A stretch of 41,901 nt of DNA, from NCBI GenBank assembly GCA_905233545.1, contig CAJOEV010000012.1:1-41901 (forward strand), read 5' to 3'. Under the pieces are notes generated by a model. That model was not told the origin of the DNA and did not search any database. It worked only from the letters and a program-made list of their open reading frames with translations. Shown in pieces: positions 2,262 through 25,427 of this stretch (its first letter is position 1; every line of letters starts with the position of its first letter). The DNA comes from an uncultured Eubacterium sp. GTDB taxonomy: Bacteria; Bacillota; Clostridia; Oscillospirales; Acutalibacteraceae. The translations under genes and the position numbers were made by a program.

Positions 2262-2293
2262 ATAAAACACGGGCGGTCTTGTTGACCGCCCGT
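2262..2293 (-). terminator. Terminator of the 15-gene kinase/FHA/ABC operon
   Basis: A perfect 10-bp GC-rich stem, ACGGGCGGTC/GACCGCCCGT, with a 5-nt loop lies just after the last gene's stop codon. On the minus strand it is followed by GTTTTATA. It is the first strong minus-strand terminator seen downstream of the promoter at 25399-25427. Confidence 0.85.
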
Positions 2294-2299
2294 ATTCTG

Positions 2300-3925
2300 T
2301 TATTTTGTTTTTGCTTTTTTCGTTGTGGACCAGTTTGTGTAAACCTTTTTACCGCTTACTGTTTTGTATGCGCGAACACGAACATAGTACGTTTTTTTAC
2401 TCTTCAGGCTTGAAATAGTTTTCGATGTTGTGTCTTTATTTGAAACGGTTACGGTCTTTGACGATGAAAACTTGCTTGAGGTTGAATACTTAATCTGATA
2501 TCCCGATACTGCCGGAGCCTTGCCCCAGGAAACCGAGAGAGCTTTGCTCTTTGCGCTTAAGCTGACAGTCGGTCTGTATCTGATGATTATCTTTGTTTTG
2601 TATGTTTTGCTGCCGTTTTTACCGCTCAGAATGATATAGCAATCCTTTGAGTCCGCAGGTATTGCTGCTGATTTTACAGAAATCTTTATTTTACCGTATG
2701 AACTGCCGTCATAATCAACATCAAGATACTGCTTTGCCTTGTCTGAAAGAGTTACTTCACGGCTGTTTAACATCATCTGGTAATCATACTCGGTAACACC
2801 TGATACATAAGCGGTTTGGGTTATCGTTTTGCCGCTTGTTTTGTTAGTGGAATAGTCCTGTACATAATTAACATAACAATAAGCGTACGGCGATAAAACA
2901 ATCTCATTTTTGAGTGTATATGTTTCACCTTTATATGAAAATGTTAATCCGTTTAACGTGTCAAGCTTGCTCTGGTCTTTTGCAGTAGTTCTGAATTCTG
3001 TTGGCTCAACTGTAGTTGTTTTTTCAAAGGTGTGATTCGCATAAATAAACTTAATGGTTATTGTACTGTTCCATTTTTCACCGTAGTAATAAACATCCTT
3101 ATCAAGCGAGGTTTCGTATCCTTTATACTCATCGGGTGTGTTACAAACCGAGCACTTACCCTCGCTCCATTTATGAGCTGTTTTCTTGATTGTTTTTGCT
3201 GTTCTTGAAATTTCTTCATTGCAAACCGTGCAGTAAACAACCGAGTCATATGAACCTTCCTTCGTACAGGTTGCGGCAACCTCGTTTTCGCGCTTTGCTT
3301 TACCCGGTGTATGCTCTGCCATTTCTATTGTTTTTTCGGTTTTTGAAATCTCCTCGCCGCATACCGTACACTTTACAACCTCATCATATGAGCCTTCCGC
3401 TGTACAGGTTGCAGCTTTAACATTTTCACGCTTTGCTTCACCGGGAGTATGAGGTCTTGTTTTTATTGCTTTCTCAACTCTGAACTCTTTGCCGCATACT
3501 GTACAGTGATATACAAGATTGCAGGAGCCTTCTTCTTTACATGTTGAATCAGCAATAGGCTCAATTTCAAAATCTTCGCTTTTTGTATGTCCGAGCGGTT
3601 GACCAACGATAACAGTTTTTTTATCCTCATATTTTATTAAATTTAACCAAACTGTTGCTTTGTATTCAATCTTTTTACCGGTTGTACAATTAGCTTCGCT
3701 GACAACAGAGCTTGTGATATCGTCTCCTTCAGCCCTGACTTCGATTTGTTCATCAGAATGTATAGAACAATTAAAGGTTGCTATTGCATATGTGTTTGAC
3801 TCATCCCATGCCCAAGTAGGCTCGGAAAAATTATGTATTCCGGTTACAACCTGGGCATATGCATTGAACGGAATCATCATTATTAATGCTAATAATGCTG
3901 CTAAAACTTTACTTAATCTTTTCAT
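2300..3925 (-). CDS. Secreted Cys/CxxC-repeat protein with Fn3-like C-terminus (short paralog)
   Basis: 541 residues. A signal peptide (MKRLSKVLAALLALIMMIPF, cleavage likely after AYA) is followed by an N-terminal region and about four repeats with the pattern tCt..GsY..vv.CtVCgeei...H (residues about 125-265). Then comes a middle domain beginning DEYKGY and a C-terminal Fn3-like module (PAVSGYQIKYSTSSKF...YYVRVRAYKT) with a lysine-rich end. There is no LPXTG and no catalytic motif. The last 280 or so residues are nearly the same as in the next gene upstream, so the two arose by duplication. It is the last gene of the operon. Export is clear; a role as exported surface material or ligand of the system is inference. 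An AAAGGTG ribosome site lies at slightly long distance. Confidence 0.75.
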   Translation of the reverse strand: MKRLSKVLAALLALIMMIPFNAYAQVVTGIHNFSEPTWAWDESNTYAIATFNCSIHSDEQIEVRAEGDDITSSVVSEANCTTGKKIEYKATVWLNLIKYEDKKTVIVGQPLGHTKSEDFEIEPIADSTCKEEGSCNLVYHCTVCGKEFRVEKAIKTRPHTPGEAKRENVKAATCTAEGSYDEVVKCTVCGEEISKTEKTIEMAEHTPGKAKRENEVAATCTKEGSYDSVVYCTVCNEEISRTAKTIKKTAHKWSEGKCSVCNTPDEYKGYETSLDKDVYYYGEKWNSTITIKFIYANHTFEKTTTVEPTEFRTTAKDQSKLDTLNGLTFSYKGETYTLKNEIVLSPYAYCYVNYVQDYSTNKTSGKTITQTAYVSGVTEYDYQMMLNSREVTLSDKAKQYLDVDYDGSSYGKIKISVKSAAIPADSKDCYIILSGKNGSKTYKTKIIIRYRPTVSLSAKSKALSVSWGKAPAVSGYQIKYSTSSKFSSSKTVTVSNKDTTSKTISSLKSKKTYYVRVRAYKTVSGKKVYTNWSTTKKAKTK

Positions 3926-3967
3926 TTTTTCTCATTCACCTTTGAAATGACTTGATATTTTGCGTTA

Positions 3968-6865
3968 CTATTTCGTTTTAACTTTTTTCGATGCGGACCA
4001 GTTTGTGACAACCGTTTTACCGCTTACTTTTTTATATGCTCGAACACGAACATAGTAGATTTTTTTGCTCTTAAGGCTTGAAATAGTTTTTGATATTGTA
4101 GTTTTATTTGAAATTGTTACAAGCTTTGGTGATGCGAATTTACTTGAGGTTGAATACTGAATCTGATAACCATCAATTGCAGGAGCTGTGTTCCATGAAA
4201 CTTTAATAGCTTTGCTCTTTGCGCTTAAACTTACAGTCGGTCTGTATCTGATGATTATCTTTGTTTTGAATGTTTTGCTGCCGCTTTTACCGCTCAGAAT
4301 GATATAGCAATCATTTGAATTTGCAGGGATTGCTGCCGATTTTACAGAAATCTTTATTTTACCGTATGCACTGCCGTCATAGTCAACATTAAGATACTGC
4401 TTTGCCTTGGATGAGAGAGTAACCTGTCGGCTGTCTAACATCATCTGGTAATCATACTTAGCAGTGCCTGTACCTGATACATAAGCGGTTCTGGTTATTG
4501 TTTTTCCGCTTGTTTTGTTAAAATAATTACCCTGAACATAATTAACATAACAATAACCGTACGGTGATAAAACAATCTCATTTTTGAGTGTATATGTTTC
4601 ACTGTTATATGAAAACTTTAATCCGTTTAACGTGTCAAGCTTGCTCTGGTCTTTTGCAGTATTCCTGAATCCCGTTGGCTTGACTTTTGTTGTTACAACC
4701 TTTTCTGAATGCTCATAAATAAGCGTAAGGGTTATTGTACTGCTCCATTTTTCACCGTAGTAATAAACATCCTTATCAAGTGAGGTTGCGTATCCCTTAT
4801 ACTCATCGGGTGTGCTACAATCCGAGCACTTTCCGTTTTTCCAGTTATGACCTGTCTTTTTGATTGTTTTTGCTGTTCTTGAGATTTCTTCATTGCAAAC
4901 CGTGCAGTAAACAACCGAGTCATATGAACCGTCTTTAGTACAGGTTGCAGCAATCTCGTTTTCGCGCTTTGCTTCGCCCTGAGTATGTCCTGTTGCTGGA
5001 ACTTCATTCTGTGCAGTCAATACTGTGTTACACACCGAGCAGTGCGAGCCCTCGGTTAAGCCTGTCTGAGTACAGGTTGCGGGAACAGCTGCATCAATAA
5101 CAACAGTGTGCACGAGCTTATCGATTGATTTAGCTTCTCTTGAAATCTCTTCACCGCAAACTGAGCAGTAAACAACCTCGTCGTATGAGCCCTGCTTCGT
5201 ACAAGTTGAGGCAACTTCGTTTTCTTTTACTGCATTTGCGGGTGTATGCGGAAGCTTATCGATTGATTTTGTTTCTCTTGAAAGTTCTTCATCGCATACC
5301 GAGCAGTAAACAACCTCGTCGTATGAGCCCTGCTTCGTACAAGTTGAGGCAACTTCGTTTTCCGTTACTGCGTCTGCAGGCGTATGCGGAAGCTTATCGA
5401 TTGATTTTGTTTCTCTTGAAAGTTCTTCATCGCATACCGAGCAGTAAACGACCTCGTCGTATGAGCCCTGCTTCGTACAAGTTGAGGCAACTTCGTTTTC
5501 CGTTACTGCGTCTGCAGGCGTATGACCAAGAGCACCCACATAATCGCCTACATAGCTGAACTTGCAGACCGTGCAGGTATAGGTTGTATATCCGTCTTTG
5601 GTGCAGGTCGGCGCGGTTACAACTGCGCTGTAATTATGTCCGAGCGCTGCAACAACAGTCTGTGCAGTGATAACCTCACCGCATACAGAGCAGTGTGAGC
5701 CCGCTGTTAAGCCTGTTCCTGTACAGGTTGCTTCAACCGTTGCATCTTCAACTGCTGTATGACCTTTTGCATTTACATAATTTTCAACATATGAGTCACC
5801 GCAATATTCACATGTGTAGGTTGTGAATCCCCGCTCTGTGCAGGTGGGTTCTGTTACAGCTGCTACATAATTATGCTTAGTGCTATCAATTTCTATTGTT
5901 TCCGTATCTCTTGAAACTTCTTCGCCGCATACTGTGCAGTATACAACCAGATCATAGGAGCCCTCTGTTGAACAGGTTTCAAAAGTATAGTTTTCAACTT
6001 TCGGCTTTCCCGATGTATGACCTGTTGCAGGAATTTCTTCACCGCCTCTGGTCTCGCTGTAGTCACAACGCGAACATTCACGCTTCTCAACTGCTGTCTT
6101 CCCTGCCTTTGTGCAGGTTGCTGCTACTGCCTTTTCTTCTGTTTCTTGCCATTCGCCAAGGTCGTGACTGAGTGCAGAAACTTCTTTCTGTGCAACAATA
6201 ACTGCTTTACAAACTGAGCAGTGTGAGCCCTCGGTTAAGCCTGTTTTTGTACATGTGGGAGCAACTGCTTCATCAACAACCTCTGTATGTCCTGTTGCAG
6301 GAATTACTTCCTGTGCGGTCAATACTGTGTTACATACCGAGCAGTGTGAGCCTGCTGTTAAACCTGTTCCTGTACAGGTTGCTTCAACCGCTGCATCTTC
6401 AACTGCTGTATGACCAGTTGCAGGAATTTCTTCGCCGCCTCTGGTCTCACTGTAGTCACAATGTGAGCATTCACGCTTTTCAACTGCTGTCTTACCAACC
6501 GCTGTACAAGTTGCTGCTACTGCTTCTTCTGATTCTTCCCATTCGCCAAGGTCATGACCGTTTGGTGCACCTATTGGACGGAATTGTGTATCCGAATACT
6601 CATTTGAATCAAATTCAACTGTTGCTGTATATTCAACACCGCCCGGTTCTGTACAGGTTGCATCCTTGATAACACTGATTATTTCTGCATTTTTCTCTAT
6701 GGGGTCTGTATCTGGAAAACTGAAGATTGCTTTTGCTGATGAATAATTATTGCTCCATACCCATTCAGGTTTAAATTCTTCACTTTCCGGTTCTGCAAAT
6801 GCATTAAACGGAATCAGCATAGTTAACGCTAAACATATTGCTAAAAACTTGCTAATCTTCTTCAT
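3968..6865 (-). CDS. Large secreted Cys/CxxC/His-repeat protein with Fn3-like C-terminus
   Basis: 965 residues from the ATG at 6865, which has GGAGG at the right distance; an in-frame TTG twelve bases upstream has none. A signal peptide ends near FNAFA. About thirteen repeats follow, each roughly 30-46 residues with one Cys (aTCT..G), a CxxC 9-12 residues later and a final GH, for example GSHCSVCNTVLTAQ. Three adjacent repeats are almost identical (5115-5528). The C-terminal 280 residues match the neighbouring 541-residue protein and end in an Fn3-like module. The regular Cys3-His pattern could bind a metal or form disulfides; neither is shown. No anchor motif or enzyme domain is visible. It is a likely surface or secreted fibre-like protein made with the kinase/ABC genes. 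Confidence 0.75.
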   Translation of the reverse strand: MKKISKFLAICLALTMLIPFNAFAEPESEEFKPEWVWSNNYSSAKAIFSFPDTDPIEKNAEIISVIKDATCTEPGGVEYTATVEFDSNEYSDTQFRPIGAPNGHDLGEWEESEEAVAATCTAVGKTAVEKRECSHCDYSETRGGEEIPATGHTAVEDAAVEATCTGTGLTAGSHCSVCNTVLTAQEVIPATGHTEVVDEAVAPTCTKTGLTEGSHCSVCKAVIVAQKEVSALSHDLGEWQETEEKAVAATCTKAGKTAVEKRECSRCDYSETRGGEEIPATGHTSGKPKVENYTFETCSTEGSYDLVVYCTVCGEEVSRDTETIEIDSTKHNYVAAVTEPTCTERGFTTYTCEYCGDSYVENYVNAKGHTAVEDATVEATCTGTGLTAGSHCSVCGEVITAQTVVAALGHNYSAVVTAPTCTKDGYTTYTCTVCKFSYVGDYVGALGHTPADAVTENEVASTCTKQGSYDEVVYCSVCDEELSRETKSIDKLPHTPADAVTENEVASTCTKQGSYDEVVYCSVCDEELSRETKSIDKLPHTPANAVKENEVASTCTKQGSYDEVVYCSVCGEEISREAKSIDKLVHTVVIDAAVPATCTQTGLTEGSHCSVCNTVLTAQNEVPATGHTQGEAKRENEIAATCTKDGSYDSVVYCTVCNEEISRTAKTIKKTGHNWKNGKCSDCSTPDEYKGYATSLDKDVYYYGEKWSSTITLTLIYEHSEKVVTTKVKPTGFRNTAKDQSKLDTLNGLKFSYNSETYTLKNEIVLSPYGYCYVNYVQGNYFNKTSGKTITRTAYVSGTGTAKYDYQMMLDSRQVTLSSKAKQYLNVDYDGSAYGKIKISVKSAAIPANSNDCYIILSGKSGSKTFKTKIIIRYRPTVSLSAKSKAIKVSWNTAPAIDGYQIQYSTSSKFASPKLVTISNKTTISKTISSLKSKKIYYVRVRAYKKVSGKTVVTNWSASKKVKTK
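5115..5528 (-). repeat. Three tandem 138-bp coding repeats
   Basis: The sequence beginning AGCTTATCGATTGATTT recurs at 5115, 5253 and 5391, exactly 138 bp apart, with only scattered differences. Each unit encodes 46 residues (HTPADAVTENEVAS... CSVCDEELSRETKSIDKLP). High DNA identity within a gene whose other repeats are diverged suggests recent unequal exchange, so copy number may vary between strains. Confidence 0.9.
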
Positions 6866-6896
6866 AGTATCCTCCAATGCTTATTCATTTCATTTC

Positions 6897-8606
6897 TTAA
6901 TTGAAGCCAAGTCCTCCACTGGAACTGCCGCCGCTTGATTTACCTCCGCTTGATTTACTGCCGCCGCTCTTCTTACCTGATGATCTTTTTCTGTTGCTGC
7001 CCGACGATCTGCGGCGTTGTGTTGCCGGCGGACGGGTTGTTGTTGTGTAGTTCTGTGCAGTTTCGAAATAGAATTCTTTATTGAAATCCGTTATTTCAGC
7101 ACCAATCGAAATGGACTGGCTGAGAACTGTTCCTGTCTTATATGCATTGCTCCTAACTGATGAGAAGTGGATATTATCAGCATCAAATCCGTTGTCTACA
7201 AGCCACTTTTTGGTTTCGCTCGAAGATTTGCCGATAAAGTTCTGCATTTCTACAGGAGGAACAGTAACCGTAAAGGTTATGCTCTTTATCTTATTAAGAT
7301 CTGTTTCGCCATCCGGTTTAACCAACTGTTTTCTGATTATCTTTTTGTCATCCTTGAGCTTTGTGTCAATCTGATATTTATACTTGATTTTCAAATCATA
7401 CTCTTCGTCAATCTCATCCAGTTCACTCTGAACATCATTCAGATTATGTTCGCGATAGTCTTTGAGAGTATCCGAGCTCACGGCTGTAGTGGTCGTCTTA
7501 TTATCGATAGTTGCTTTTACTAATACGATTGAAACAATCGCTGCCACAGCGGCTATAATCGCAACAACAATTATTATCTTTGACTTTTTACCGAGTTTTC
7601 CCGAATAATCCTTCTTCTTCTCTTCAATAACACGTTTAACAGAGCCCGTGCTGTTGAGCTCATTAAGGAAGGTTTCGCAATCGGGAGTTCTGTATTGCCT
7701 GTTGACATTCAGCGCATTCATAATTGCGTTGTTAACATTTTCAGGAATGTCAATTCCCAGCTCAAGCGGAGCTTTAAGTGTGTCGTTGTTCGAACGTTCA
7801 ACAGCATCGGGAGGAACAATTCCCGTTATTGCATAATACATAACAGCCGCTATTGAATAAACATCAACCGACGGGTCAGGAGTGATATCCTCCCTGTACA
7901 TCTCAACGGGTGAATAACCTTTTTTGGTTATTACATTAAGATTGATATTTGAGCCCGAGGTTGCAAGCTTTGAACCGCCGAAGCTTAAAAGCTTAACCTG
8001 CCTGTCCCTTGTCATAATTATATTGTCGGGTGAAATATTATAATTAATAATTCCTTTTGAATGAATCAACGCAAGTGACTGAAGAAGCGGTTCAATTATC
8101 TGCGAAAAATCACTCCACTGAAGAATTCCGTTGCTGAGCACTTTGCTGAGCGGAAGTCCGTCAATATATTCAGCAACCGAATATGCGGTTGAGTTATTAA
8201 CAAAAACATCAAGAACCGCAGCAACAGAGCTTATTGAATTAGAAAGATTCATAAGGCTTGTTGCTTCCTCGATAAACGCTCTCAATCCCGATTCGAACTG
8301 CTTTTCCTTCTCGCCGTCGTAAGTACTGATTTCGTTCTGGCCGGGCATTCTTGAGGCAAAATCGGTTGGGAAGTATTCTTTGATAACAACCTTCCTGTCT
8401 GCACCTAAATCATAAGCCAGATAAGTTATTCCGAATTTTCCTCCTGACAAAGCTTTGCCTATTACATACCTGTTTTCAAGAATTGTTCCAACTCTTAAAA
8501 AGTACGGCTCAGGCTGTTCAAATTCTTTTGCGCTTCCGCATACAGGACAGTATTCCATACTTGAATCATATTCCTGCATGCATCCCAGACATCTGATTTT
8601 ATCCAT
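6897..8606 (-). CDS. Zinc-ribbon pseudokinase with TM segment and PASTA-like domain
   Basis: 569 residues. The N-terminal zinc ribbon has CLGC...CPVC (Cys 6, 9, 20, 23). A kinase fold spans about residues 46-315 with lysine 76 kept (VVIKEYFP). The HRD motif is replaced by N188-Y189-N190 (INYNISPDN) and DFG by S208-F209-G210 (LLSFGG), so both catalytic and metal-binding Asp are gone. A TM helix (IIIVVAIIAAVAAIVSIVLV, about 345-365) leads to an extracellular part with one PASTA-like unit near 450-510 and a basic Ser/Gly tail. It is probably an allosteric partner or scaffold of the active kinases upstream. The rest of the frame is intact and the ribosome site AAGGAG is good, so it is not simply a pseudogene. 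Confidence 0.85.
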   Translation of the reverse strand: MDKIRCLGCMQEYDSSMEYCPVCGSAKEFEQPEPYFLRVGTILENRYVIGKALSGGKFGITYLAYDLGADRKVVIKEYFPTDFASRMPGQNEISTYDGEKEKQFESGLRAFIEEATSLMNLSNSISSVAAVLDVFVNNSTAYSVAEYIDGLPLSKVLSNGILQWSDFSQIIEPLLQSLALIHSKGIINYNISPDNIIMTRDRQVKLLSFGGSKLATSGSNINLNVITKKGYSPVEMYREDITPDPSVDVYSIAAVMYYAITGIVPPDAVERSNNDTLKAPLELGIDIPENVNNAIMNALNVNRQYRTPDCETFLNELNSTGSVKRVIEEKKKDYSGKLGKKSKIIIVVAIIAAVAAIVSIVLVKATIDNKTTTTAVSSDTLKDYREHNLNDVQSELDEIDEEYDLKIKYKYQIDTKLKDDKKIIRKQLVKPDGETDLNKIKSITFTVTVPPVEMQNFIGKSSSETKKWLVDNGFDADNIHFSSVRSNAYKTGTVLSQSISIGAEITDFNKEFYFETAQNYTTTTRPPATQRRRSSGSNRKRSSGKKSGGSKSSGGKSSGGSSSGGLGFN

Positions 8607-8638: not shown

Positions 8639-10447
8639 TTAATAAATTCTGATTTTTCGCGTTTTACTCCAGTCGGAGTAGTATTTTTTCCCGCTTACGG
8701 TTTTATATGTTCTGACTTTAATATAATACGGTTTATTGTATTTTATCTTATAAGTAATTGATTTTGTGCTTGATTTAACGGTTTTGGATGTCTTTTTACT
8801 GTAGTTCTGATCCTCACCGATATATATCTGATACCCTGAAATACTACTTACTCTCGGAAGACTGATTTTCAACTTGTTTTTCTTCTGCAAAGATAATTGC
8901 TTGTTTGTAATTGAAACAGACTTTGGAGCAATTGTGTAATTCAGAGTTATGCTGCCTTTATAGTTGTTTTTAAAAGTAACTGTTGCTGAGGCAGTACCGA
9001 TATTTTTGCTGTTTTTGTATGTTACACTGTAATTATCATCCCAAATATAATTATCTTTTGAATCAAAAACAACTACCTCGGGCTTAATTGATTTACCCGT
9101 ATAAGTTAATTTCTTGGATGAAAGAAATACATTGCTTTTTTTCAAAGCGGGTATGTTTTCTGTTCTGATATTCTTGCCGCATACAGCACAGGTTTCTTTT
9201 ATCTTGCCCGACGATGAAAATGTTGCTTTTACAAGGCTTTCAGAAATCTCAGTATGGTCGCATGTTATTTTATTAATTCCGACTTTATATGAGCCGCTCA
9301 TTTCGTCGCTGTATAAGCCTGAATAAATCTCGTATGTTTTGCCGGACGTAAGATATCTTATCATTCTGAAATTCGAATCATATCCGCTGTCATCATCGCC
9401 GCACAAATAATTATCGTTTTCGTACAGACTTGCGACAGTATCATATGAAGAAATACTGCAAATTTCATATACACCTGTTTCACTTGGTGTAAAATAGTAG
9501 GAATCACGCGAACCCTCTGAAACACTCGCAGTATATTTAGCACCTGTTCCCCATATTCCGTAGTATTCCGGATAACATTCTCCGCCTTCAATAGAATCAA
9601 CGAACTCAACGCTTGATATACCTGTGTATTCTTCATAACTGTTTGCATCAATCCAGCCAAAGAAAACATTGTCTCCGTTATCTGATTGCTCAGGCAGCTC
9701 AATAGTGCTGTCATATGGAATCAATACCGTTGAATACGAACTGTATCCGGGGTACAGCGTAACAAGTTCATATGTAAAGGAATATGTTGTTCTGTTATAG
9801 CTTCCGTCAAAAACATCAACATAATATGTTCCCGCTTTTGAAGCAGTACCTTTAGTTGAAATGCTTGTTCTGTTATTGTAGCTATTCGGATAATTATCTG
9901 AAAACTCATCATTTGTTCCGAAATAAATGAACGCAATTCCGTTATCATCCGTGATGCTAAGATTTATTATCTGAGTTGAGGATAAGTCGCTTGTGGTTGA
10001 TGCGGACACATCGGGCGCAATTTCGTCATACTTACTCATTCTGACAGTAAATGAACCCGTTGCGTCACTGTAACATCTTGCACTGAAATAATACTTCTTC
10101 TGGGCTTCAAGATAATAAACCAGCTTGAAGTTTCTGCCTTCACCCGAATCGTCATCTGTTTCAATAACCGAACCCGATGAATCACAAATACTTCCCATAG
10201 GGTCTACATTTGTGCCCCATGAGGTAAAAACATAATAAGCGCTCGCGGACGGTGTAAATGAATAATACTGTGATTCGCCTGAACTTGATATACTGCAGCT
10301 CACATTAGTTTCCGCTGTTATTGCGCTGGCAGTGCCGATTGTTGTTCCGCCAAACGCTTCAATCGGTGTAATCATACTGAGAAAAAAGGCTGCGCACATT
10401 ATTATTGACACTATTCTTTTTTCCGAAATTTTCATTTTATCTTTCAC
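8639..10447 (-). CDS. Secreted PPC-like/Ig-like/Fn3-like surface protein
   Basis: 602 residues from a GTG start at 10447 with AAGG seven bases away; the ATG four codons later lacks a site. A signal sequence (IVSIIMCAAFFLSMITPIEA) is followed by two prepeptidase-C-like beta domains (SQYYSFTPSASAYYVF and YYFTPSETGVYEI, each with a DDDSG turn). Then come one CDH..CAVC unit like the repeats in the two downstream proteins, an Ig-like domain (YTGKSIKPEVVV...) and an Fn3-like end (YKTVSGKKYYSDWSKTRK). No protease domain or sorting signal is present. It shares its terminal module with the other two secreted proteins, which supports a common role as exported or surface components. The function is unknown. 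Confidence 0.7.
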   Translation of the reverse strand: MKDKMKISEKRIVSIIMCAAFFLSMITPIEAFGGTTIGTASAITAETNVSCSISSSGESQYYSFTPSASAYYVFTSWGTNVDPMGSICDSSGSVIETDDDSGEGRNFKLVYYLEAQKKYYFSARCYSDATGSFTVRMSKYDEIAPDVSASTTSDLSSTQIINLSITDDNGIAFIYFGTNDEFSDNYPNSYNNRTSISTKGTASKAGTYYVDVFDGSYNRTTYSFTYELVTLYPGYSSYSTVLIPYDSTIELPEQSDNGDNVFFGWIDANSYEEYTGISSVEFVDSIEGGECYPEYYGIWGTGAKYTASVSEGSRDSYYFTPSETGVYEICSISSYDTVASLYENDNYLCGDDDSGYDSNFRMIRYLTSGKTYEIYSGLYSDEMSGSYKVGINKITCDHTEISESLVKATFSSSGKIKETCAVCGKNIRTENIPALKKSNVFLSSKKLTYTGKSIKPEVVVFDSKDNYIWDDNYSVTYKNSKNIGTASATVTFKNNYKGSITLNYTIAPKSVSITNKQLSLQKKNKLKISLPRVSSISGYQIYIGEDQNYSKKTSKTVKSSTKSITYKIKYNKPYYIKVRTYKTVSGKKYYSDWSKTRKIRIY

Positions 10448-17350: not shown

Positions 17351-18910
17351 TTAGTTCGCCTCCTTATATTTATTGTATCTATCAACATAACCGTCGATAT
17401 CCTTGCTGATTTTTTCATATGCGTCAGTGAGATTGTCAACCCCAAAGAATTTACCCGCCTCATCAGGTGAGCCGTAGAAGCAGAGCTTACCGCCGGGTGC
17501 AAGGAAAATTACCTTATCAAACAATCTGATATTCTGAAGAGTGTGAGTAATAACGATAACCGTTTTACCCTTCTTTGATGCAAGTCCCTGAAGCTGATGC
17601 ATAAGGTTTGTTTCTGCTTCGGGGTCAAGTCCGCTCGTGGGCTCATCAAGGAAGAATAAAGTCGGGTCGGAAATAAGCTCAACGGCTATTGAAGCTCTTT
17701 TTCTCTGTCCGCCTGAAAGCTTTTTGATATAAGTATCTTTCTGCTGAGTCAAATCAACCATATCCAGAACTTCGGCAACACGCTGACTCAGTTCCTGTTT
17801 TGTAATATCGCTCGGGAGTCTGAGCCTTCCTGTGTAGGTCAGCATATCCTCGAGAGTCAAGTTATCGTGAACGATATCCTGCTGAGGAACATATCCGATT
17901 GACGACTTAACGGACTGATAGTTTTTATAAAGCTCTGCTCCGTTAATTAAAACTCTTCCTTCTGTTGCAGGTTCAAATCCGTTTATACAGTTCATAAATG
18001 TGGTTTTACCTGCACCTGAACCACCGAGAACAGCAACAAGCTCACCCGGGTTAATTGTAAGTGAAATATTGCGAAGAATGTATTTCTTACTTGAACCGTC
18101 AATTCCTGTTCCCTTCTTACAAGGAACCATTCTCGAAATATTTTCAATTACAACCTGAACACCGCCGTTTCTTGCATATTCATAGTTCTCGTAGCTTTCA
18201 ACCTCAATTTTCTTGCTGTTAATATTAGCTGTGTATGAAACAACATCGTTCGATTTAGCAGCAACAGGAATACCGTAAACAAGATAATTGCCGAGTCTGA
18301 CAATTTTAGTAGACGGAAGTCTGATAACATCACCGTTGTTAAGCGGTGTTTTATCTTTAATAATGGTTGAATTAACAAGTGTTCCGTTGGCACTGTTAAG
18401 GTCTTTTACATAGGGAACTCCGTTTTCGGTAGTGATTGAAATATGCTTTCTTGAAACATTGATATTGGGAATAACAATGTTGTTGTCGGCACCTCTTCCC
18501 ACGGTAATACTCTGTGCGGCATTAAAAGGCACACTGCTCCACATACAGTTGTTTGACGCATTACTGTCAAACATAAGGTATACCTTATCCTTTTCGTTTG
18601 AACCGATAGATAATACATCACCGTCTTTAAGTGCAACTTTCTGCGAGGGAACGGAGCCAAAGCCTTTAAGCACTGTGTTATGGAATGCAGTTCCGTTTGT
18701 GCTGCCCAGGTCGGCATAATAGTAGTTTCCGCCCTCTCTCGTAATAATACCGTGCTGCATAGAAACTATCGGAGAGTCGATTCCAATGTCATTGGGACCG
18801 TCCAATCTTCCGATAAACATAGCATCTGAGTCAAGAGGAAAAACGCCGATTTTTCCGCTCTGAGTTAATGCAATTAAGTGACCATACAACAGGTTTATAT
18901 AATTATCCAT
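17351..18910 (-). CDS. FHA-FHA-ABC ATPase (Rv1747-like, ATPase half)
   Basis: 519 residues. FHA1 (about 30-110) has FIGR, STNGT but SMQH instead of SRxH. FHA2 (about 134-215) has all the usual residues (VGRG, SRKH, NGT). An ABCG-type ATPase follows (about 250-490) with GSGAGKTT (297-304), signature LSGGQRKR (from 398), Walker B FFLDEPTSGLD and the VITHT His loop. No TM. Mycobacterial Rv1747 carries two FHA domains, ATPase and permease in one chain and is regulated by kinase PknF; here ATPase and permease are separate adjacent genes. The FHA domains should bind phosphothreonine made by the operon's kinases and so gate export; this is inference. Confidence 0.9.
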   Translation of the reverse strand: MDNYINLLYGHLIALTQSGKIGVFPLDSDAMFIGRLDGPNDIGIDSPIVSMQHGIITREGGNYYYADLGSTNGTAFHNTVLKGFGSVPSQKVALKDGDVLSIGSNEKDKVYLMFDSNASNNCMWSSVPFNAAQSITVGRGADNNIVIPNINVSRKHISITTENGVPYVKDLNSANGTLVNSTIIKDKTPLNNGDVIRLPSTKIVRLGNYLVYGIPVAAKSNDVVSYTANINSKKIEVESYENYEYARNGGVQVVIENISRMVPCKKGTGIDGSSKKYILRNISLTINPGELVAVLGGSGAGKTTFMNCINGFEPATEGRVLINGAELYKNYQSVKSSIGYVPQQDIVHDNLTLEDMLTYTGRLRLPSDITKQELSQRVAEVLDMVDLTQQKDTYIKKLSGGQRKRASIAVELISDPTLFFLDEPTSGLDPEAETNLMHQLQGLASKKGKTVIVITHTLQNIRLFDKVIFLAPGGKLCFYGSPDEAGKFFGVDNLTDAYEKISKDIDGYVDRYNKYKEAN

Positions 18911-18933: not shown

Positions 18934-19872
18934 TTATCCTAACTGAAATGTGTTTTGAGTGGTTGTGAGATAAATTGATTCGCCTCGATTAATCATTTTC
19001 GGCATACCGCTGTTAAGTCTCATGCCATCCGCGGTAAATGTTCCTTCGGAAGAATAATCCGTGACCAGATAGATTTTCTGCATTGCATCATATTTGATAA
19101 CGCAGTGCATAGGACTTATGTATGATTCTTCGGCATCAATAACAATATTGACCATTGACGGATTGCTTCCGATTGAAACCTCTTCATTGTGTTCAATCGG
19201 GAAATCAAATCCCTGATACATTCCGCTGATTCCTCTGATAACCCCAGTCTGTGACTTGCGTCCTGCAGTAACTCCTGCACCGTCTACTCCGGGTCTGTCA
19301 TCGTCATTAATATGCGGAAATGCCATCGGGCCGTAAGCCGTATCGGCGTTATCATCGGGAATCTGTTGCTGAAAATCGGATGAAAAACCGCCCTCGTCAA
19401 GTGAATTATTCATATTATTGCCTGCAAAATTTGCATTCTGTAGCAAATACATTCTTTGAGCACGGTCGGATGTATATCCGAGCGGAATTACGTTTCCGTA
19501 AACACCTGCAAATTCATTAACATCCGAAATAAAGTATGCCCATGCAACAAACGGACCGATGCCGATAAGCGCACCAACGTACAACCATAAAACATATGAA
19601 TTACCGGAATGCTGCGGGTTTACTGCCGGACCGTATCTGTATGCATTATCCTGGAGTCTGTCCATAGCTTTTGCACACCAGAGAACAGGAACAATTCCAA
19701 ATGTTACCAACCCGAGAAGAGCTGCGCCAAGGAAAAACATATTGTTTTTTCCGTCACCGTAGCATATCCGATTAACTTCATCACCCATTATACACATCAT
19801 AACAAGCGGATATATTCCGAGGGTTATTATGCTGAGAAAAATCATAAGGGCAATAGAACGTTTTTTAATCAT
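18934..19872 (-). CDS. DUF4234-like membrane protein with a degenerate FHA domain
   Basis: 312 residues. The first 130 residues hold about four TM helices in a DUF4234-like pattern (SIALMIFLSIITLGIYPLVM, later LLGLVTFGIVPVLW). A polar linker follows and an FHA fold lies at about 215-312. In this FHA the usual motifs are altered: IGSN instead of GR, SPMH instead of SRxH, EGT instead of NGT, so phosphothreonine binding is doubtful. It may act as a structural membrane adaptor near the ABC ATPase. The ATG at 19872 has AAGGAG. Confidence 0.75.
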   Translation of the reverse strand: MIKKRSIALMIFLSIITLGIYPLVMMCIMGDEVNRICYGDGKNNMFFLGAALLGLVTFGIVPVLWCAKAMDRLQDNAYRYGPAVNPQHSGNSYVLWLYVGALIGIGPFVAWAYFISDVNEFAGVYGNVIPLGYTSDRAQRMYLLQNANFAGNNMNNSLDEGGFSSDFQQQIPDDNADTAYGPMAFPHINDDDRPGVDGAGVTAGRKSQTGVIRGISGMYQGFDFPIEHNEEVSIGSNPSMVNIVIDAEESYISPMHCVIKYDAMQKIYLVTDYSSEGTFTADGMRLNSGMPKMINRGESIYLTTTQNTFQLG

Positions 19873-19898: not shown

Positions 19899-20558
19899 CT
19901 ACTCCTCGTCAGCTTCAATATCATTCCAGTTGAACTGATCGCTGCAGAAAGGAACGAAAAGAAGAACGCTGGAACCGATTTTAATATTATCGTAAACATT
20001 GAGTTCGGTGGTTGATAATACAACCTTGTCGTTAAGATAGAAAAGCTCTTTTGAATCGCCTGCCTGAATAAGGAAAATATTTCCCTTCGGCTCATAAATA
20101 ATTATGGCATGCTTATCTCTTGAAACAGAATTGTCCTTTGCAAGAACAATATCCATGTTCTGAGCTCTGCCGACGAAGTTTCTTCCCATTACAATTCTGA
20201 AGTCCTCACCGATATGGGGTCCTTCAACACAAACGAGCCAACCTGCAACAGGCTGCTTTGCGCCCTTCTTTACGTTGAACATTCCAACTGTCTTCTGAAC
20301 ATCATCAACCTCGCTCTTTAATGTCTGATTCTTAACTTCGGAATCATTGGTCTGAGATGCTGTCTGATTAGCCATTGATGCAGCCTGGGTTACAGCGTTA
20401 GAATCATTGCTGAAGTTTGTTGCAGCAGAAGCGCTTGCAACTGTCGGCTGATAGGAATCATTCTGAGACTGTTCTGACTGACTTTTGTCACAGTGGGGAC
20501 AAGAAGAATACTTGTCTGCGTCATAAAAGTGGCCTTGGTTACATCTTGTTAAATTCAT
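19899..20558 (-). CDS. Zinc-ribbon FHA protein (second copy)
   Basis: 219 residues. The N-terminal ribbon-like CNQGHFYDADKYSSCPHC is followed by a Gln/Ser/Asn-rich linker, a short motif (VDDVQKTVGMF) and an FHA domain (about 105-205) with VGR and SRDKH but no clear NGT. No TM. It is a paralog of the first gene of the operon (24738-25343), with the same order of ribbon, QKTV motif, GWLVCVEG and FHA. It is probably a soluble phospho-reader, and Thr in the QKTV motif could itself be phosphorylated, as in GarA/OdhI-type proteins; that comparison is inference. Confidence 0.8.
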   Translation of the reverse strand: MNLTRCNQGHFYDADKYSSCPHCDKSQSEQSQNDSYQPTVASASAATNFSNDSNAVTQAASMANQTASQTNDSEVKNQTLKSEVDDVQKTVGMFNVKKGAKQPVAGWLVCVEGPHIGEDFRIVMGRNFVGRAQNMDIVLAKDNSVSRDKHAIIIYEPKGNIFLIQAGDSKELFYLNDKVVLSTTELNVYDNIKIGSSVLLFVPFCSDQFNWNDIEADEE

Positions 20559-20599: not shown

Positions 20600-21670
20600 C
20601 TAATATCTTATTGTGATAACCGTTGTGTTATCCTGATACTTTTTGTTCTTTGACATTGCACAGTCAACCAATGCTTGTGCCGCAACATTCATATCTGAAT
20701 TGTTATCAACAACAATATGGTATATTTCGTTATCCGAAACACTTCTGTACAATCCGTCCGAACAAAGAACAATTATATCGTCCTTTTGCAGTGTCAGTGG
20801 CTTTTTGTTTATATCCATCATATGAAGCGAGCCGATTCCGATAAAGCTTGTAAGAGCTTCTTTGTTCTTGTCGTTATTCGCCTCTTCAATGGTCATCATA
20901 CCTTTTTTGACAAGCTGTTCCAATTCTGCGTAATAGTTGTGTTCCTTATTTACTCTTATCATCTCTTTTTTTCTGATAACATAAATATGGCTGTCACCTA
21001 CCGACGCCCAATAGAACTTGTTGCCGTCAATGAATACACTGACTATTGTTGAACCCGCACCCAAAAGATTTCCGTATTCATCTTTTAAAGAATAAACCGC
21101 ATCGTCAATTTCAATCAATGTATCGTGATAAAATTCAGGCGGTTGCTTGTTCCCGCGATTGTAAAATGCATCAATCATTTTTTCAACACTTAGTGAACTT
21201 GCCTGCTCACCGCCGTTCATTCCGCCCATTCCGTCGCAAAGAACTGCCATCCACGGCTTTTCGTTGAAATCCTTGATATTAATATCGGTTACGTTATATG
21301 CATCCTGCTGTGATTCGCGTTTTCCGATTACCGAGCACGCTCCAACCTTTTGAGAGCATTCTTCGCTGAACTTTGCAACAGATTTTGCATGCATAACCTC
21401 TGTCTTAACAAATTCGCTATCGGACGAATCGCTGATGCTGTTATTTGCTTTGGGAGCAGAGGTTTGCAGTACCTTGCTGAATTCCGATTCGAACCCCGGA
21501 TGATTCTTCTGAAAACGGTTTGCGTTTTCCTGTTTTAGTTTTTCCTGAAAAAGCCTTTTCTGTTCGTCGTCACGTTCAAAAGCATCCGCGAAAATATCGT
21601 TATCGAAGGTTTGAACCTTTCGGGGCGTAACATTCTGGCTTTCTTTTTTCTTTCTGTCAAATAATGCCAT
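20600..21670 (-). CDS. PP2C-family phosphatase with N-terminal extension
   Basis: 356 residues. A charged, probably disordered extension of about 105 residues precedes a full PP2C domain: ESQQD, LCDGMGGMNGGE, VGDSHIYVIRK, LCSDGLYRS and YQDNTTV. All metal ligands are present. The two PP2C genes of the operon are clearly diverged from each other, which points to different targets rather than a recent duplicate. It starts eight bases after the kinase-FHA gene; the ribosome site (AGTAGGT) is weak, consistent with coupling. Confidence 0.9.
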   Translation of the reverse strand: MALFDRKKKESQNVTPRKVQTFDNDIFADAFERDDEQKRLFQEKLKQENANRFQKNHPGFESEFSKVLQTSAPKANNSISDSSDSEFVKTEVMHAKSVAKFSEECSQKVGACSVIGKRESQQDAYNVTDINIKDFNEKPWMAVLCDGMGGMNGGEQASSLSVEKMIDAFYNRGNKQPPEFYHDTLIEIDDAVYSLKDEYGNLLGAGSTIVSVFIDGNKFYWASVGDSHIYVIRKKEMIRVNKEHNYYAELEQLVKKGMMTIEEANNDKNKEALTSFIGIGSLHMMDINKKPLTLQKDDIIVLCSDGLYRSVSDNEIYHIVVDNNSDMNVAAQALVDCAMSKNKKYQDNTTVITIRY

Positions 21671-21678: not shown

Positions 21679-23058
21679 CTACTTCAAATAAAGTTTAACT
21701 TTTACACCGTTCTGGCAAATAAAAAATGTTTCTCCGTCCTGCAGGAAGCTTTGTGCCTGCGAGAGCATTTTTCTGTTATTTGAATAAAATGTTCCGTTAA
21801 CGGAATCATTATCAACAACAATAAATCGTTTATGAACTCTGTCGAATCCGACAAAAGCGTGATGCCTTCCAATTTCATCAAAGTCATTAATTGAAATATC
21901 GTTATCCTCGCTTCTTCCAATTGAGATAAACCCAAATTCGGGAATTATTGCAACTTTGCCCGTTGAATAGCCTGAAACAACCTCAGCATAAGGAATCTTA
22001 AGACCGCGGGTATGGTTATCATTATCACCATATCTGTTTTCATTTTCCTTTTCTTGATTGATTATGCCGATTGTCTTATTATCAATCGAGCTGTTCATCG
22101 GAACATAATTTGCAAGCGCATCCAGAAAACTTCCGACATCGGGGAAACGGCTGTGGATTTCAGGTTCAATGGATCTTGCGATAACATCTGAAATCTCTTT
22201 TGAAACACCGCAATCCAGCTCAAAAAGGGTTTTCATTGTATACCCTTCAAGACGCTTGACAGAATCAATTAGCGGCTGACCGGAAACGGCGGTGTAAAAC
22301 GTTGCACCCAATGCATAGACATCCGTCCACGGCCCTTGATTTCCGCTTAATGAATACTGCTCAGGAGGAGCAAATCCCGGTTTAAGAAAGATTGACTCGT
22401 TCTTATAATAAGAATTATCAAAATAATTCTTTGATGCACCGAAATCAATAAGCTTTATCTCACCGTCTCTGTCTATCATAATATTTTCGGGACTTATATC
22501 CCTGTGGATTATTCCCTTTTTATGAACTTCAATCAAGGCAGAGCCGATTGTAAAGAGAATCAATGTTGCATCGTTAAGTGAAATCTTTCCCTCGTTGCTG
22601 TTCGTAAGAATCTTAACGCTGACACCGTCAATGTATTCCATAACAAAATACACTGTGTTGTTTTCGGAAAAATAGTTTTCTATGTCAACTACAAAGCTGT
22701 TGTCTTTCAAACTGTGCAGCGCTTCGATTTCACTTTGAAAATTCTCTTTACACTGATGAAACGCTAATGTGTTGCTGTCTTTTTCATAGATGCAGTCATC
22801 GGGAGCCCTGTATGAATAGTTTTCGGGCATACATTCTTTTATTGCAACATTCTTGCCTGTGGCAAGGTCTTTTGCAAGATATGTTACTCCGAAACCACCC
22901 TTGCCCAAAACTCTTCCGACAAGATATCTTGCATTTAGAATTGTTTCGGGAAACAAGGTCCCTTCAAATTTTTTAGCGTTATTCTGATCATAACCGCAAT
23001 GAGGACACACAAATGTGTCAACCTGATTGAAGCAGTTAGGACAAATACTATATATCAT
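21679..23058 (-). CDS. Zinc-ribbon Ser/Thr kinase with C-terminal FHA domain
   Basis: 459 residues, cytoplasmic. Ribbon CPNC...CPHC (Cys 6, 9, 18, 21); kinase about 44-320 with GKGGFG, VAIKE (Lys 74), HRDISPEN (185-192) and DFG (205-207), all intact; FHA about 370-459 with SIGRSEDN, GRHH and VNGTF. It has no TM, unlike the other three kinases of the operon. A kinase that carries its own FHA can be recruited to phosphorylated partners or to its own activation loop. The ATG at 23058 has AAGGAA. A conserved GPWTDVYALGA segment is shared with the PASTA kinase. Confidence 0.92.
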   Translation of the reverse strand: MIYSICPNCFNQVDTFVCPHCGYDQNNAKKFEGTLFPETILNARYLVGRVLGKGGFGVTYLAKDLATGKNVAIKECMPENYSYRAPDDCIYEKDSNTLAFHQCKENFQSEIEALHSLKDNSFVVDIENYFSENNTVYFVMEYIDGVSVKILTNSNEGKISLNDATLILFTIGSALIEVHKKGIIHRDISPENIMIDRDGEIKLIDFGASKNYFDNSYYKNESIFLKPGFAPPEQYSLSGNQGPWTDVYALGATFYTAVSGQPLIDSVKRLEGYTMKTLFELDCGVSKEISDVIARSIEPEIHSRFPDVGSFLDALANYVPMNSSIDNKTIGIINQEKENENRYGDNDNHTRGLKIPYAEVVSGYSTGKVAIIPEFGFISIGRSEDNDISINDFDEIGRHHAFVGFDRVHKRFIVVDNDSVNGTFYSNNRKMLSQAQSFLQDGETFFICQNGVKVKLYLK

Positions 23059-23077
23059 TTCAAATTCCTTAAATGTA

Positions 23078-24763
23078 TTAGTAAGCTATTCTGATTATTG
23101 AGTTTCCTGCACTGATAGTTGCTTCACTGTCAAGAAATGTTTTTGATTTAATCTGAACCCCGTTAACAAAGGTTCCGTTTGTTGTTTCCAGATCGCAGAT
23201 AGCCAATCCGTTTTCAACCTCTTCAACAACAAAATGCTGTCTTGAAAGCACGGGGTCCTGAACAGTCAGGTCACACATATCGGACCTTCCGACTATCATA
23301 CTATTGTACATATTATATGAAACATTGTGAACAGTTCCGTCGCCTGACTGAATATGAATTCTGAGTTTTTTTCCGCCCTGCGCCTGTTCAATATGAACCT
23401 GCTCTGATTCAATAACCTCTTCCTGCTGAACAAATATATCTTTTATCTTCGTAACATTCTTCTTTTTCTTGATGTTCATCAAGATAAGATAAAGTGCAAC
23501 AAGAAATGCAATGGGAATAAGAGCAAAACCGACAATTATGAGAATCTTGTAAATAATATTGAATGCGTCAACATCTTTTTCAATAGATTTATTCTTAAGA
23601 GGGTTTTTATTGTCGGAAGCATCGGTGATGTTTCTGAACTCAAAGGTATATTTTCCCGAATAAACCTTGTCATTCATATTAAGTTTAACCGTACAATCCT
23701 TTGAGCTGTACTTTGCAGTTACAATTGCGAGATCATTTTTTCCTTTTTTTACAGTGAATGAAGAAATATTGTCAGCCTTTTCAACATTCTCGCTGAATTT
23801 TATTACAAACGAATTTGAATCTTTGTCAAAGGATATATCTTTAACCTCGGGGTTGTCCTCATCATTCTTTGCATCTGCAAGAATCTTATCCTCTGCAATG
23901 TATGATGATGAATTCTTTTTTGCTTTAACCTTTATATCGCAGGTTCCGAGTGATTTTCCGATATTTGATTCAGCTTTAACGATAGTTACATTGTTGATTG
24001 TTTTTTTAACACTTTTGAACTTTGAAGAAGCGTCCGATGACGAAAAGCTTGTGAGTGTTCCTCCAGAAGTTCTTGTTATGTATCCGAAGCCATCTGCATT
24101 TGATTTATCTGTTGAGGAAAGACACAGTCCGTAAACAGGCAGTCTGTTGGTTTCAAGTTCGTCAATAACCTCCTGCTGTGAGCTGTTGCCTTTTTCGAAA
24201 TCGGCACCGTCAGAAACGACAATTGCATATTTTCTGTCGTAACCTTTTTTATCAACGGAATCATCAAGCGCCTTAATCAGAGCTTTATAGAATGTTGTGC
24301 CGTCGGAATTGCAGCGAATACTGTTAATCGCACTGTGTATCTTGCTCTTACTCTCATTTCCCTTGAGAACGGTTTTAACATTTGTACCGAATGTCATAAG
24401 AACAAGCTTGTCATCCTCGCCGAGAGAATCCGCATATGAAATCAGACTTGGCTTGATTGCGTTCAATGCCTGCTGAGACATTGAGGTTGAAGTGTCGATA
24501 AGATAATAAACGAGTTTCTTATCGGAAGAGGATGCTTTGTGCGCATCTTTAACCGTGAATGCTTCACCGTCAATCTTTACCGATTCAATATCTTTCTCAT
24601 CAAATTTGCCTTCAAGCTCAAATTTAACATTCGGAAGAGAAGAATTAATCTGTCTGATATCTACTGATTTTGCTGCAAATGCGTTAATGCTGAACACATT
24701 AACAAACATGGAAAGTGCAAATACAAAAGTTAATATCTTAGTTATCCTGTTTTTCTTCATCAT
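23078..24763 (-). CDS. VWA-FHA membrane protein
   Basis: 561 residues from the ATG at 24763 (MMKKNR..., AGGGG upstream); an upstream ATG at 24802 would add MFLFSIAERGVTG without a ribosome site. A signal-like helix is followed by a VWA domain with an intact MIDAS start (YYLIDTSTSMS) and VVSDGAD. Then come a beta-rich extracellular region, one TM (about 412-434, IIVGFALIPIAFLVALYLIL), a basic cytoplasmic linker and an FHA domain (about 475-561) with VGRSDMCD, SRQH and TNGTF. The orientation puts VWA outside and FHA inside. It could bind a surface ligand and connect it to phosphorylated proteins. It overlaps the preceding gene by 26 bases. Confidence 0.88.
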   Translation of the reverse strand: MMKKNRITKILTFVFALSMFVNVFSINAFAAKSVDIRQINSSLPNVKFELEGKFDEKDIESVKIDGEAFTVKDAHKASSSDKKLVYYLIDTSTSMSQQALNAIKPSLISYADSLGEDDKLVLMTFGTNVKTVLKGNESKSKIHSAINSIRCNSDGTTFYKALIKALDDSVDKKGYDRKYAIVVSDGADFEKGNSSQQEVIDELETNRLPVYGLCLSSTDKSNADGFGYITRTSGGTLTSFSSSDASSKFKSVKKTINNVTIVKAESNIGKSLGTCDIKVKAKKNSSSYIAEDKILADAKNDEDNPEVKDISFDKDSNSFVIKFSENVEKADNISSFTVKKGKNDLAIVTAKYSSKDCTVKLNMNDKVYSGKYTFEFRNITDASDNKNPLKNKSIEKDVDAFNIIYKILIIVGFALIPIAFLVALYLILMNIKKKKNVTKIKDIFVQQEEVIESEQVHIEQAQGGKKLRIHIQSGDGTVHNVSYNMYNSMIVGRSDMCDLTVQDPVLSRQHFVVEEVENGLAICDLETTNGTFVNGVQIKSKTFLDSEATISAGNSIIRIAY

Positions 24764-25343
24764 CCCAGTTACGCCCCTCTCTGCAATACTGAATAAAAAC
24801 ATATTTGCTGACGCCTGCAGTTATTGTGTTGCCTTCTTTAAGCTGAACGGCGTCAGAAAGAACTTCGTCATTATAGTAAGTTATTCCGTTTCCCTGCATT
24901 ACATAAAATTCAATATTTACAGGGTCATAAATAATCGAAAAATGATTATCTCTGCTGACTCTATCATCATTAATATGAATATCATTTTTCATTGAACGTC
25001 CGACAAAATTTTTACCCATATGGATTTCGAATGAACGTCCCCTGTTTTCGCCTTCAATGCAAACGAGCCATCCTGCAATAGGATTGATATTTCTGTCACT
25101 GAAATATTTCGGAACAGTTTTCTGTACCTCGTCAACATTGTTTCTGACCATATTTCTTAGGCTCTGCGTTTTTATGTTATCCTCAACGGAAAAGTTGCTT
25201 CCCTTAGCAATGGTTTTGTTTTCGCCAATATCTAACGACGATGACGAGCCCGAAGCTGTTGAAGAGTCTTTCAGACAATGCGGACAAGTATCATATTTTC
25301 CATTGTCATAAAAATGATTATTCGGACATTTAATGATTGCCAT
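24738..25343 (-). CDS. Zinc-ribbon FHA protein (first gene of the operon)
   Basis: 201 residues from the ATG at 25343, chosen because AAGGAG sits at ideal distance; the longer frame adds MRLRRYK without support. Ribbon-like CPNNHFYDNGKYDTCPHC, a Ser-rich linker, DEVQKTVPKYF, GWLVCIEG and an FHA domain with FVGRSMKN and SRDNH. It is a paralog of the gene at 19899-20558. It lies directly downstream of the consensus promoter at 25399-25427. A soluble phosphothreonine-binding adaptor is the likely role. Confidence 0.85.
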   Translation of the reverse strand: MAIIKCPNNHFYDNGKYDTCPHCLKDSSTASGSSSSLDIGENKTIAKGSNFSVEDNIKTQSLRNMVRNNVDEVQKTVPKYFSDRNINPIAGWLVCIEGENRGRSFEIHMGKNFVGRSMKNDIHINDDRVSRDNHFSIIYDPVNIEFYVMQGNGITYYNDEVLSDAVQLKEGNTITAGVSKYVFIQYCREGRNWDDEEKQDN

Positions 25344-25398
25344 TTTATATCTCCTTAGTCGCAATATAACTAATTATATACATTATATACACTAAAAA

Positions 25399-25427
25399 AT
25401 TATATCATAATATAATTTATGTGTCAA
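25399..25427 (-). promoter_or_regulatory. Consensus sigma-A promoter of the kinase/FHA/ABC operon
   Basis: On the minus strand TTGACA (25422-25427), a 17-bp spacer and TATAAT (25399-25404) match the consensus at all twelve positions. Transcription would start near 25392, about 50 bases before the first gene. The surrounding 25344-25540 is very AT-rich and holds no ORF. I see no clear operator or riboswitch. Confidence 0.85.

Follow-up and report, generated by a model that had tools for sequence, protein, structure and literature searches.

Introduction

How much of a phospho-signalling pathway can be gathered around one transporter within a single bacterial operon is the question raised by the locus described here. 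The window, by which we mean the whole 41901-bp stretch analysed, is contig G000:C12 of an uncultured Eubacterium sp., a gut-type member of the Clostridia (genome of 2.23 Mb, 97.6% complete); on its minus strand lies a run of fifteen genes, g1 to g15, that encode kinases, PP2C phosphatases, proteins with FHA domains, an ABC ATPase with its permease, and secreted proteins. An earlier note, made from the sequence alone, had read these genes as one operon and as a closed circuit of outside sensors, phosphorylation, phospho-reading and export.

We are inclined, with some caution, to see here an ABC exporter gated by phosphorylation, equipped with signalling genes of its own and present in the genome as a sporadic insertion; as a whole, the operon looks like an unusually elaborate, sporadically inherited form of a known kinase-controlled exporter. 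Kinase/FHA control of bacterial envelope transport is known in a few cases (Rv1747 and type VI secretion), and a self-contained operon with sensors, kinases, erasers, readers and a transporter could allow a stimulus to be connected with its phosphosite and its output.

Architecture of the operon

The fifteen genes span positions 25343 down to 2300 (Table 1) and are separated, reading from g15 to g1, by gaps of 42, 19, 32, 38, 19, 9, 22, 2, 23, 26, 41, 8 and 19 bp, the largest being 42 bp, together with one 65-bp overlap. Two promoter scans return a single 12/12 match, at 25427-25399, with other promoter-like sites at chance level relative to shuffled sequence (17 against 17.8 expected, and 54 against 49.5). 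At the far end, the terminal hairpin core (2293-2269) is followed by a short T run, GTTTTATATGG. Terminator-like sites between 1500 and 21000, on both strands, are somewhat more numerous than chance would give (23 against 14.9, standard deviation 4.0), those on the minus strand within the block numbering seven, all of them weak (5-8 pairs) and intragenic; the 3' end of cinA has a terminator-like site of its own (25573-25549), just upstream of the operon promoter. Neither internal promoters nor internal terminators, then, offer an obvious point at which to split the block, and the small gaps, the perfect sigma-A promoter and the strong terminal hairpin, all as the earlier note had described them, suggest that 25343-2300 is likely to be one transcription unit. 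The gene list also held as described, save for the start of g1, which is probably the ATG at 25343; the true start of g2 is probably slightly downstream of the annotated one.

Pfam bears out an inventory of two PP2C phosphatases, six proteins with FHA domains and an ABC ATPase/permease pair, and catalytic residues (Table 1) agree with three kinases predicted to be active (g3, g10 and g11) and one predicted pseudokinase (g13). By Pfam, seven of the nine FHA domain matches of the genome fall here, as do four of its seven kinase matches and two of its four PP2C matches; C20 carries another kinase/PP2C pair, which probably serves housekeeping. Six of the fifteen proteins begin with a zinc-ribbon-like motif. 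The usual FHA signature includes an Arg and the Ser of S-x-x-H; by eye, two of the FHA domains are degenerate, that of g3 having Gly in place of this Ser and that of g6 lacking the Arg.

Among the outside sensors that had been proposed, the PASTA and VWA domains stand, whereas the solute-binding protein (SBP) domain of g10 is only tentative: it lies under the Pfam cut-off (24.8 against 27 bits), has no hit among PDB sequences with E of 1 or less, and gives a poor AlphaFold model from three sequences (predicted local distance difference test, pLDDT, 33.6). A relative of g10 in genome G104 just passes SBP_bac_1 (26.4 against 26 bits).

The secreted proteins g12, g14 and g15 had been put forward as possible cargo. 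Since, as read by eye, each begins with a Sec-type signal sequence, they are poor candidates for cargo of the ABC exporter, and we consider that role unlikely. As a separate observation, g14 contains a 138-bp tandem repeat in three copies (94% matches; window 5115-5524), a recent-looking expansion of its CxxC repeats.

Table 1. Positions of the operon genes, their signals and the bordering genes in the window (TM, transmembrane segment)
Feature	Position	Strand	Description	Basis
cinA	25582..26058	-	one border of the site that is empty in congeners	
Sigma-A promoter	25399..25427	-	TTGACA-N17-TATAAT, extended -10	12/12 consensus positions
g1	24738..25343	-	N-terminal zinc ribbon, KTVP motif, FHA; GarA-like adaptor	Pfam, profiles
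g2	23078..24802	-	signal sequence, outside VWA (MIDAS DTSTS), weak Big_5, TM, inside FHA	Pfam
g3	21679..23058	-	zinc ribbon, kinase (HRD, DFG), KTIG in linker, FHA	Pfam, residues
g4	20600..21670	-	PP2C phosphatase	Pfam; Stp1-like but below cut-off
g5	19899..20558	-	zinc ribbon, KTVG motif, FHA; g1 paralogue	Pfam, profiles
g6	18934..19872	-	DUF4234 membrane domain and FHA without usual Arg	Pfam
g7	17351..18910	-	two FHA and ABC ATPase (Walker A, LSGGQ, Walker B present)	Pfam, residues
g8	15087..17348	-	ABC-2 permease, outside domain of ~470 residues between TM1 and remaining TMs	Pfam, model
g9	14339..15064	-	PP2C phosphatase	Pfam
g10	12143..14329	-	zinc ribbon, kinase (HKD, DFG), TM, outside domain weakly SBP-similar	Pfam
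g11	10486..12123	-	zinc ribbon, kinase (HRD, DFG), TM, two PASTA repeats	Pfam
g12	8639..10447	-	secreted protein without Pfam match	
g13	6897..8606	-	zinc ribbon, pseudokinase (NYN, SFG), TM, PASTA	Pfam, residues
g14	3968..6877	-	secreted CxxC-repeat protein, C-terminal fn3, tandem DNA repeats	
g15	2300..3925	-	secreted CxxC-repeat protein, C-terminal fn3	
Terminal hairpin core	2269..2293	-	3' of g15	fold -26.2 kcal/mol
tRNA-Thr(CGT)	2033..2108	-	other border of the site that is empty in congeners	

Conservation and linkage to the exporter

A strong match to g7 is found in 4 of 80 congener genomes. Genes 1-8 lie in identical order in G358 and G309, with 31-57% identity gene by gene (the FHA of g3 is not detected by profile in the G309 copy), whereas beyond gene 8 the loci of G000, G358 and G309 diverge, such that neighbours are conserved in part and the fifteen genes are not conserved as a whole. 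In G321, whose contig is short and whose reading frames are broken, parts of g7, g8, g10, g11, g13 and the CxxC-repeat proteins follow the order of the window; g9 and g12 were not seen at that locus. Giant proteins of 3090 and 2072 residues are encoded close upstream of the core in G358 (L089:1427-10699) and G309 (from the last bases of L091 into L092:1-6038; here a LytTR response regulator separates giant gene and core), accompanied by two small membrane-protein genes; the window has no counterpart of any of these.

Beyond the genus, at least 20 of 398 family genomes and at least 16 of 391 class genomes encode proteins like g7 (E up to 1e-45), both lower bounds because only the three best first-look candidates were followed per genome, as in the class search for VWA-FHA. 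Eight related loci stand in records of Clostridia, Eubacterium sp. or Lachnospiraceae, three of them from goat or roe deer. Loci were gathered via the FHA-ABC ATPase, six ABC2-aligned loci and a search with the permease C-terminus; 44 of the 50 mapped were counted, L050 being the same contig as G709 and five others (G521, G825, G955, L052 and L053) having no FHA-ABC open reading frame (ORF) by the models used. With a run defined by same strand and gaps of up to 300 bp (opposite ORFs of fewer than 130 residues skipped), and with 19 of the 44 loci running up to the limit of the sequence read, the run includes a kinase at 26 loci, PP2C at 17, one or the other at 28 and another FHA protein at 8; for scale, the genome of the window holds 7 kinase matches in 2.2 Mb. 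The permease is fused in a single FHA-FHA-ABC-ABC2 chain at 23 loci and is a separate gene in the run at 17. That kinases and PP2C accompany FHA-ABC exporters is therefore upheld. An operon as self-contained as that of the window also suggests that kinase/FHA control of envelope transport reaches further among uncultured Clostridia than has been reported.

The exporter

The g8 permease passes the ABC2 Pfam models PF12698 and PF01061 above cut-off, and its outside domain is modelled as a strand-rich part with a GLUG-like beta helix. Pfam itself reports no GLUG in g8; the earlier note's call of a GLUG-type permease nevertheless gains support from the fold match of the model to the beta helix of 3n6z, a putative IgA1 protease (E 3.7e-7), the only match below E 0.001, with NosY and ABCG membrane domains following weakly (E 0.004-0.06). 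We suggest that g8 is probably a permease of the ABCG/NosFY fold class that displays a beta helix outside the cell. Given this fold class and the example of Rv1747, our guess is that an envelope lipid, a glycan or another small compound may be the substrate.

In a tree of the ATPases, which carries long-branch warnings, 23 of the 24 rows with a split permease or GLUG fall on one branch (99/96), and the 8 GLUG rows form one branch (94/96) inside the separate-permease branch; G795, on a short contig, is a split row placed elsewhere. The tally of 128/295 from a whole-chain search with g8 should not be taken as a transporter count: among the rows listed besides the window, the ABC2 region is aligned in six, and the alignments of the others fall within residues 233-485, the repeat domain, in other, often large, ORFs.

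Adaptors and a candidate phosphosite

The small proteins g1 and g5 combine a zinc ribbon with an FHA domain that has GarA as its best relative among PDB sequences (adaptor profile A2, E 1.3e-8, with a chlamydial FHA second at 1.6e-8), and the GarA structures found include an entry 'Rv1827 pThr 22'. The NCBIfam OdhI model is not passed, g1 and g5 scoring 21.1 and 21.2 bits against a cut-off of 200. In GarA, a Thr before the FHA domain is phosphorylated, and a Thr before FHA is present in all 16 long-type adaptors counted by hand, as [KR]T in 14 and as KT[VI]G in 9, although it seems to lie nearer the FHA core than in GarA. This set was drawn from 21 rows picked by a regular expression, among which G1004 was a false match and four (G902, G974, G1056 and G985b) do not belong to the long type and are without KT[VI]G; the expression did not pick the adaptors of G810, G998 and G031.

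The strict KT[VI]G motif occurs in 9 of 109 FHA ORFs and, among ORFs that lack these domains, in 9 of 1183; the p value (4e-6) is only descriptive, because the motif was chosen after viewing the same data. It is present in 2 of 52 kinases and 1 of 51 PP2C proteins. Eight small adaptors have its first residue 31-32 positions ahead of the FHA match, and the linker of g3 contains it too. We regard the conserved Thr before FHA (KTVP in g1, KTVG in g5) as a candidate phosphoacceptor.

Insertion at the cinA/tRNA-Thr site

The operon is a sporadic insertion, since the transporter is confined to 4 of 80 congeners and the site between cinA and tRNA-Thr(CGT) is empty in all four congeners in which it could be resolved. 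In these (G307, G311, G315 and G355), cinA is followed by the tRNA gene after ~100-600 bp and the operon is absent, while in the window the two lie 23.5 kb apart. The search covered 24 congeners, with the CNNM neighbour matched in 12 of 25 genomes; set aside were four CNNM matches at 49% identity, G306 and G328, which end inside cinA, and G362, which has no cinA in its stretch. Because neither cinA, the CNNM gene nor a tRNA was found within the 40 kb read around each of the G358 and G309 clusters, these probably occupy other genomic sites.

A classical tRNA-targeted island was considered and set aside: comparison of the border stretches gave no 10-bp direct repeat (one 10-bp inverted match was seen), and Pfam found no integrase among the fifteen operon proteins. 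Near the G358 cluster, a stretch with a macro domain, a weak VWA match, a relaxase and a serine recombinase (L090:6142-13957) is a sign of a mobile element.

A proposed model for phospho-gated export

We propose that the membrane kinases g10 (SBP-like outside) and g11 (PASTA outside), along with the soluble kinase g3, would phosphorylate the adaptors g1 and g5, the conserved Thr just before FHA being the likeliest target, and that the exporter might be phosphorylated as well. The two adjoining FHA domains of g7, together with the inner FHA of g2, could then bind these phosphothreonines, clustering exporter, adaptors and VWA-FHA protein at the membrane, such that transport by g7/g8 would be switched on or off; the PP2C phosphatases g4 and g9 would reverse the modification, and the pseudokinase g13 and the DUF4234-FHA protein g6 are probably scaffolds. 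We infer the phosphorylation and binding steps, the direction of the switch and the substrate; the anatomy, the catalytic residues, the synteny of genes 1-8, the linkage of kinase and exporter, the conserved Thr and the empty site are read from the DNA itself.

Signalling genes away from the exporter, and other readings

The signalling genes can also be followed independently of the transporter. Adaptor profile A2 (up to seven first-look candidates per genome) matches in 31 of 391 class genomes and VWA-FHA profile A1 in at least 8, all within the 31, the two genes being adjacent in 8 of 8. FHA-ABC and adaptor co-occur in 7 class genomes, on one contig in 4 of these (Fisher p 6.9e-5 with the window genome and 3.8e-4 without it, uncorrected for kinship), and FHA-ABC and VWA-FHA in 3, linked in 2. 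Elsewhere, G104 has PP2C, PP2C, adaptor, SBP-kinase and PASTA-kinase genes with no ABC match within the 20 kb read, and in G031 (L184:1-20000) a weak, sub-cut-off Flp1-like pilin, DUF5702 and DUF6382-FHA precede the adaptor gene, three PP2C and three zinc-ribbon kinases. FHA and PP2C genes of G902, G974 and G1056 lie beside look-alike gene sets (L179, L180 and L181) that are possibly an uncharacterised apparatus under phospho-control; a gene of the G1056 set, in L181, weakly matches TssD/Hcp below cut-off, and a PHROGs search of the Hcp-side genes gave nothing useful. The phospho-signalling block of G928 (L123:11645-14423) includes a D-Ala-D-Ala carboxypeptidase-like gene and a trypsin-FHA gene.

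Several points weigh against a phospho-gated exporter with a private signalling set. A linked FHA-ABC was not found in 6 of the 8 class genomes with VWA-FHA (G816, G987, G1086, G970, G930 and G1004), whose blocks are runs of kinase, PP2C, FHA, PP2C, adaptor and VWA-FHA genes (one kinase gene and one adaptor gene being absent from the ORF list; the first three blocks touch a contig end). The FHA-ABC/permease pair stands alone in G709; in a goat record (L051), the locus opens with g4- and g5-like genes and the FHA portion of g6, and other genes intervene before g7 and g8; and at 12 of the 44 mapped loci, none of them truncated by a contig end, the run lacks kinase, PP2C and any other FHA protein. 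To these are added the strict Thr motif, present in 0 of 44 FHA-ABC proteins and enriched in a descriptive sense only, the moderate quality of the g8 model (mean pLDDT 61, the outside domain being best), and the lack in g7 of the long inter-FHA linker of Rv1747 (PMC9312465). The 'closed circuit' of the earlier note is accordingly not supported, the signalling genes being separable from the transporter; of the co-occurrence of FHA-ABC, GLUG permease and VWA-FHA genes, the shared order in G358 and G309 holds, but not a general linkage of VWA-FHA.

Such observations could instead be taken to mean that kinase, PP2C, FHA and VWA genes form a general phospho-signalling cassette, with surface proteins, pili or cell-wall enzymes as its main output and the ABC pair as a replaceable client. 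The six unlinked VWA-FHA blocks, the pilin/DUF6382-FHA neighbourhood of G031, the ABC-free block of G104, the weakly Hcp-like neighbour in G1056 and the differing post-core genes of G000, G358 and G309 all speak for it; we nonetheless think it possible rather than probable, as genes 1-8, transporter included, share one order in the three genus loci long enough to show it, and a kinase lies in the run at 26 of 44 FHA-ABC loci. A defence or inter-bacterial conflict island, with kinase, PP2C and VWA as a regulated conflict system and exporter and surface proteins as effectors, would suit the sporadic occurrence, the empty site, the relaxase and recombinase near the G358 cluster and the published tubulin/GAP1 loci that pair a kinase (often with zinc ribbon) with PP2C and VWA (PMC7159879). 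We judge this improbable: toxin, nuclease, MoxR and GAP1 domains are absent from the fifteen proteins by Pfam (a defence library was not searched), apart from a generic P-loop AAA_21 match on the ATPase and a weak RNase_II match in g14. Least probable of all, to our mind, is a chance neighbourhood of several independent operons on one strand; the distal genes are indeed not retained in G358 or G309, but gaps of at most 42 bp persist across 23 kb with one strong promoter and no strong internal terminator, the kinase, PP2C and FHA matches of the genome are concentrated here, and the distal half is partly in order in G321.

Alongside the phospho-gated exporter, we tentatively entertain a wider idea that we would not yet call probable, namely that Clostridia share a portable phospho-signalling cassette, made up of zinc-ribbon sensor kinases, PP2C, GarA-like zinc-ribbon adaptors that carry their own Thr phosphoacceptor ahead of the FHA, and VWA-FHA receptors, which is plugged into different surface machines: an exporter with a displayed beta helix here, pilus-like or Hcp-like sets elsewhere. 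If true, the cassette would be the Gram-positive analogue of the threonine phosphorylation pathway of type VI secretion, but tied to no particular machine.

Comparison with known systems

The gene composition of this operon was not found described by searches aimed at it in the open-access literature, in so far as it was available (most subscription papers lie outside this scope), in line with the earlier note, which knew of no such system; its individual parts are known. PppA is the PP2C member of the type VI threonine phosphorylation pathway (PpkA, PppA, Fha), which is alike in that a Ser/Thr kinase and an FHA protein control a secretion machine. There, the FHA protein binds a phosphothreonine of a membrane component (PMC3953482), whereas here the output is an ABC exporter, and Pfam matched no type VI genes among 20 window proteins scanned (15 operon, 5 flanking). 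Tubulin/GAP1 conflict systems likewise place a kinase, which often bears a zinc ribbon, next to PP2C and VWA genes (PMC7159879), but the operon has FHA proteins and an ABC exporter in place of any tubulin or GAP1 match.

Fusions of kinase with SBP and with FHA are already known (PMC1262709). GarA/OdhI offers a further parallel, in the small FHA protein with a conserved Thr before FHA and GarA as best PDB relative, and in the arrangement with PknG, GlnH and GlnX, where a solute-binding protein acts upstream of a kinase (PMC6069109), as the tentative SBP-kinase g10 might. The adaptors here differ by their N-terminal zinc ribbon and stay far below the OdhI cut-off (21 against 200 bits).

Rv1747 of Mycobacterium tuberculosis, in which the inter-FHA linker serves as a phosphosite, is with PknF the reduced parallel that the earlier note had drawn, and the parallel holds. 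Rv1747 and g7 both have two FHA domains before the ABC ATPase (Pfam FHA x2, ABC_tran), and in both cases kinases are encoded in the same operon, here g3, g10 and g11. PknF positively modulates Rv1747 (PMC3908365), whose FHA region condenses more readily once phosphorylated by PknF, an effect that PstP reverses (PMC9312465). Rv1747 joins ATPase and transmembrane domain in one chain, an order matched by 23 of 44 Clostridia loci, whereas the operon described here splits them into g7 and g8, gives the permease an outside domain with a beta helix, and surrounds the pair with many further genes.

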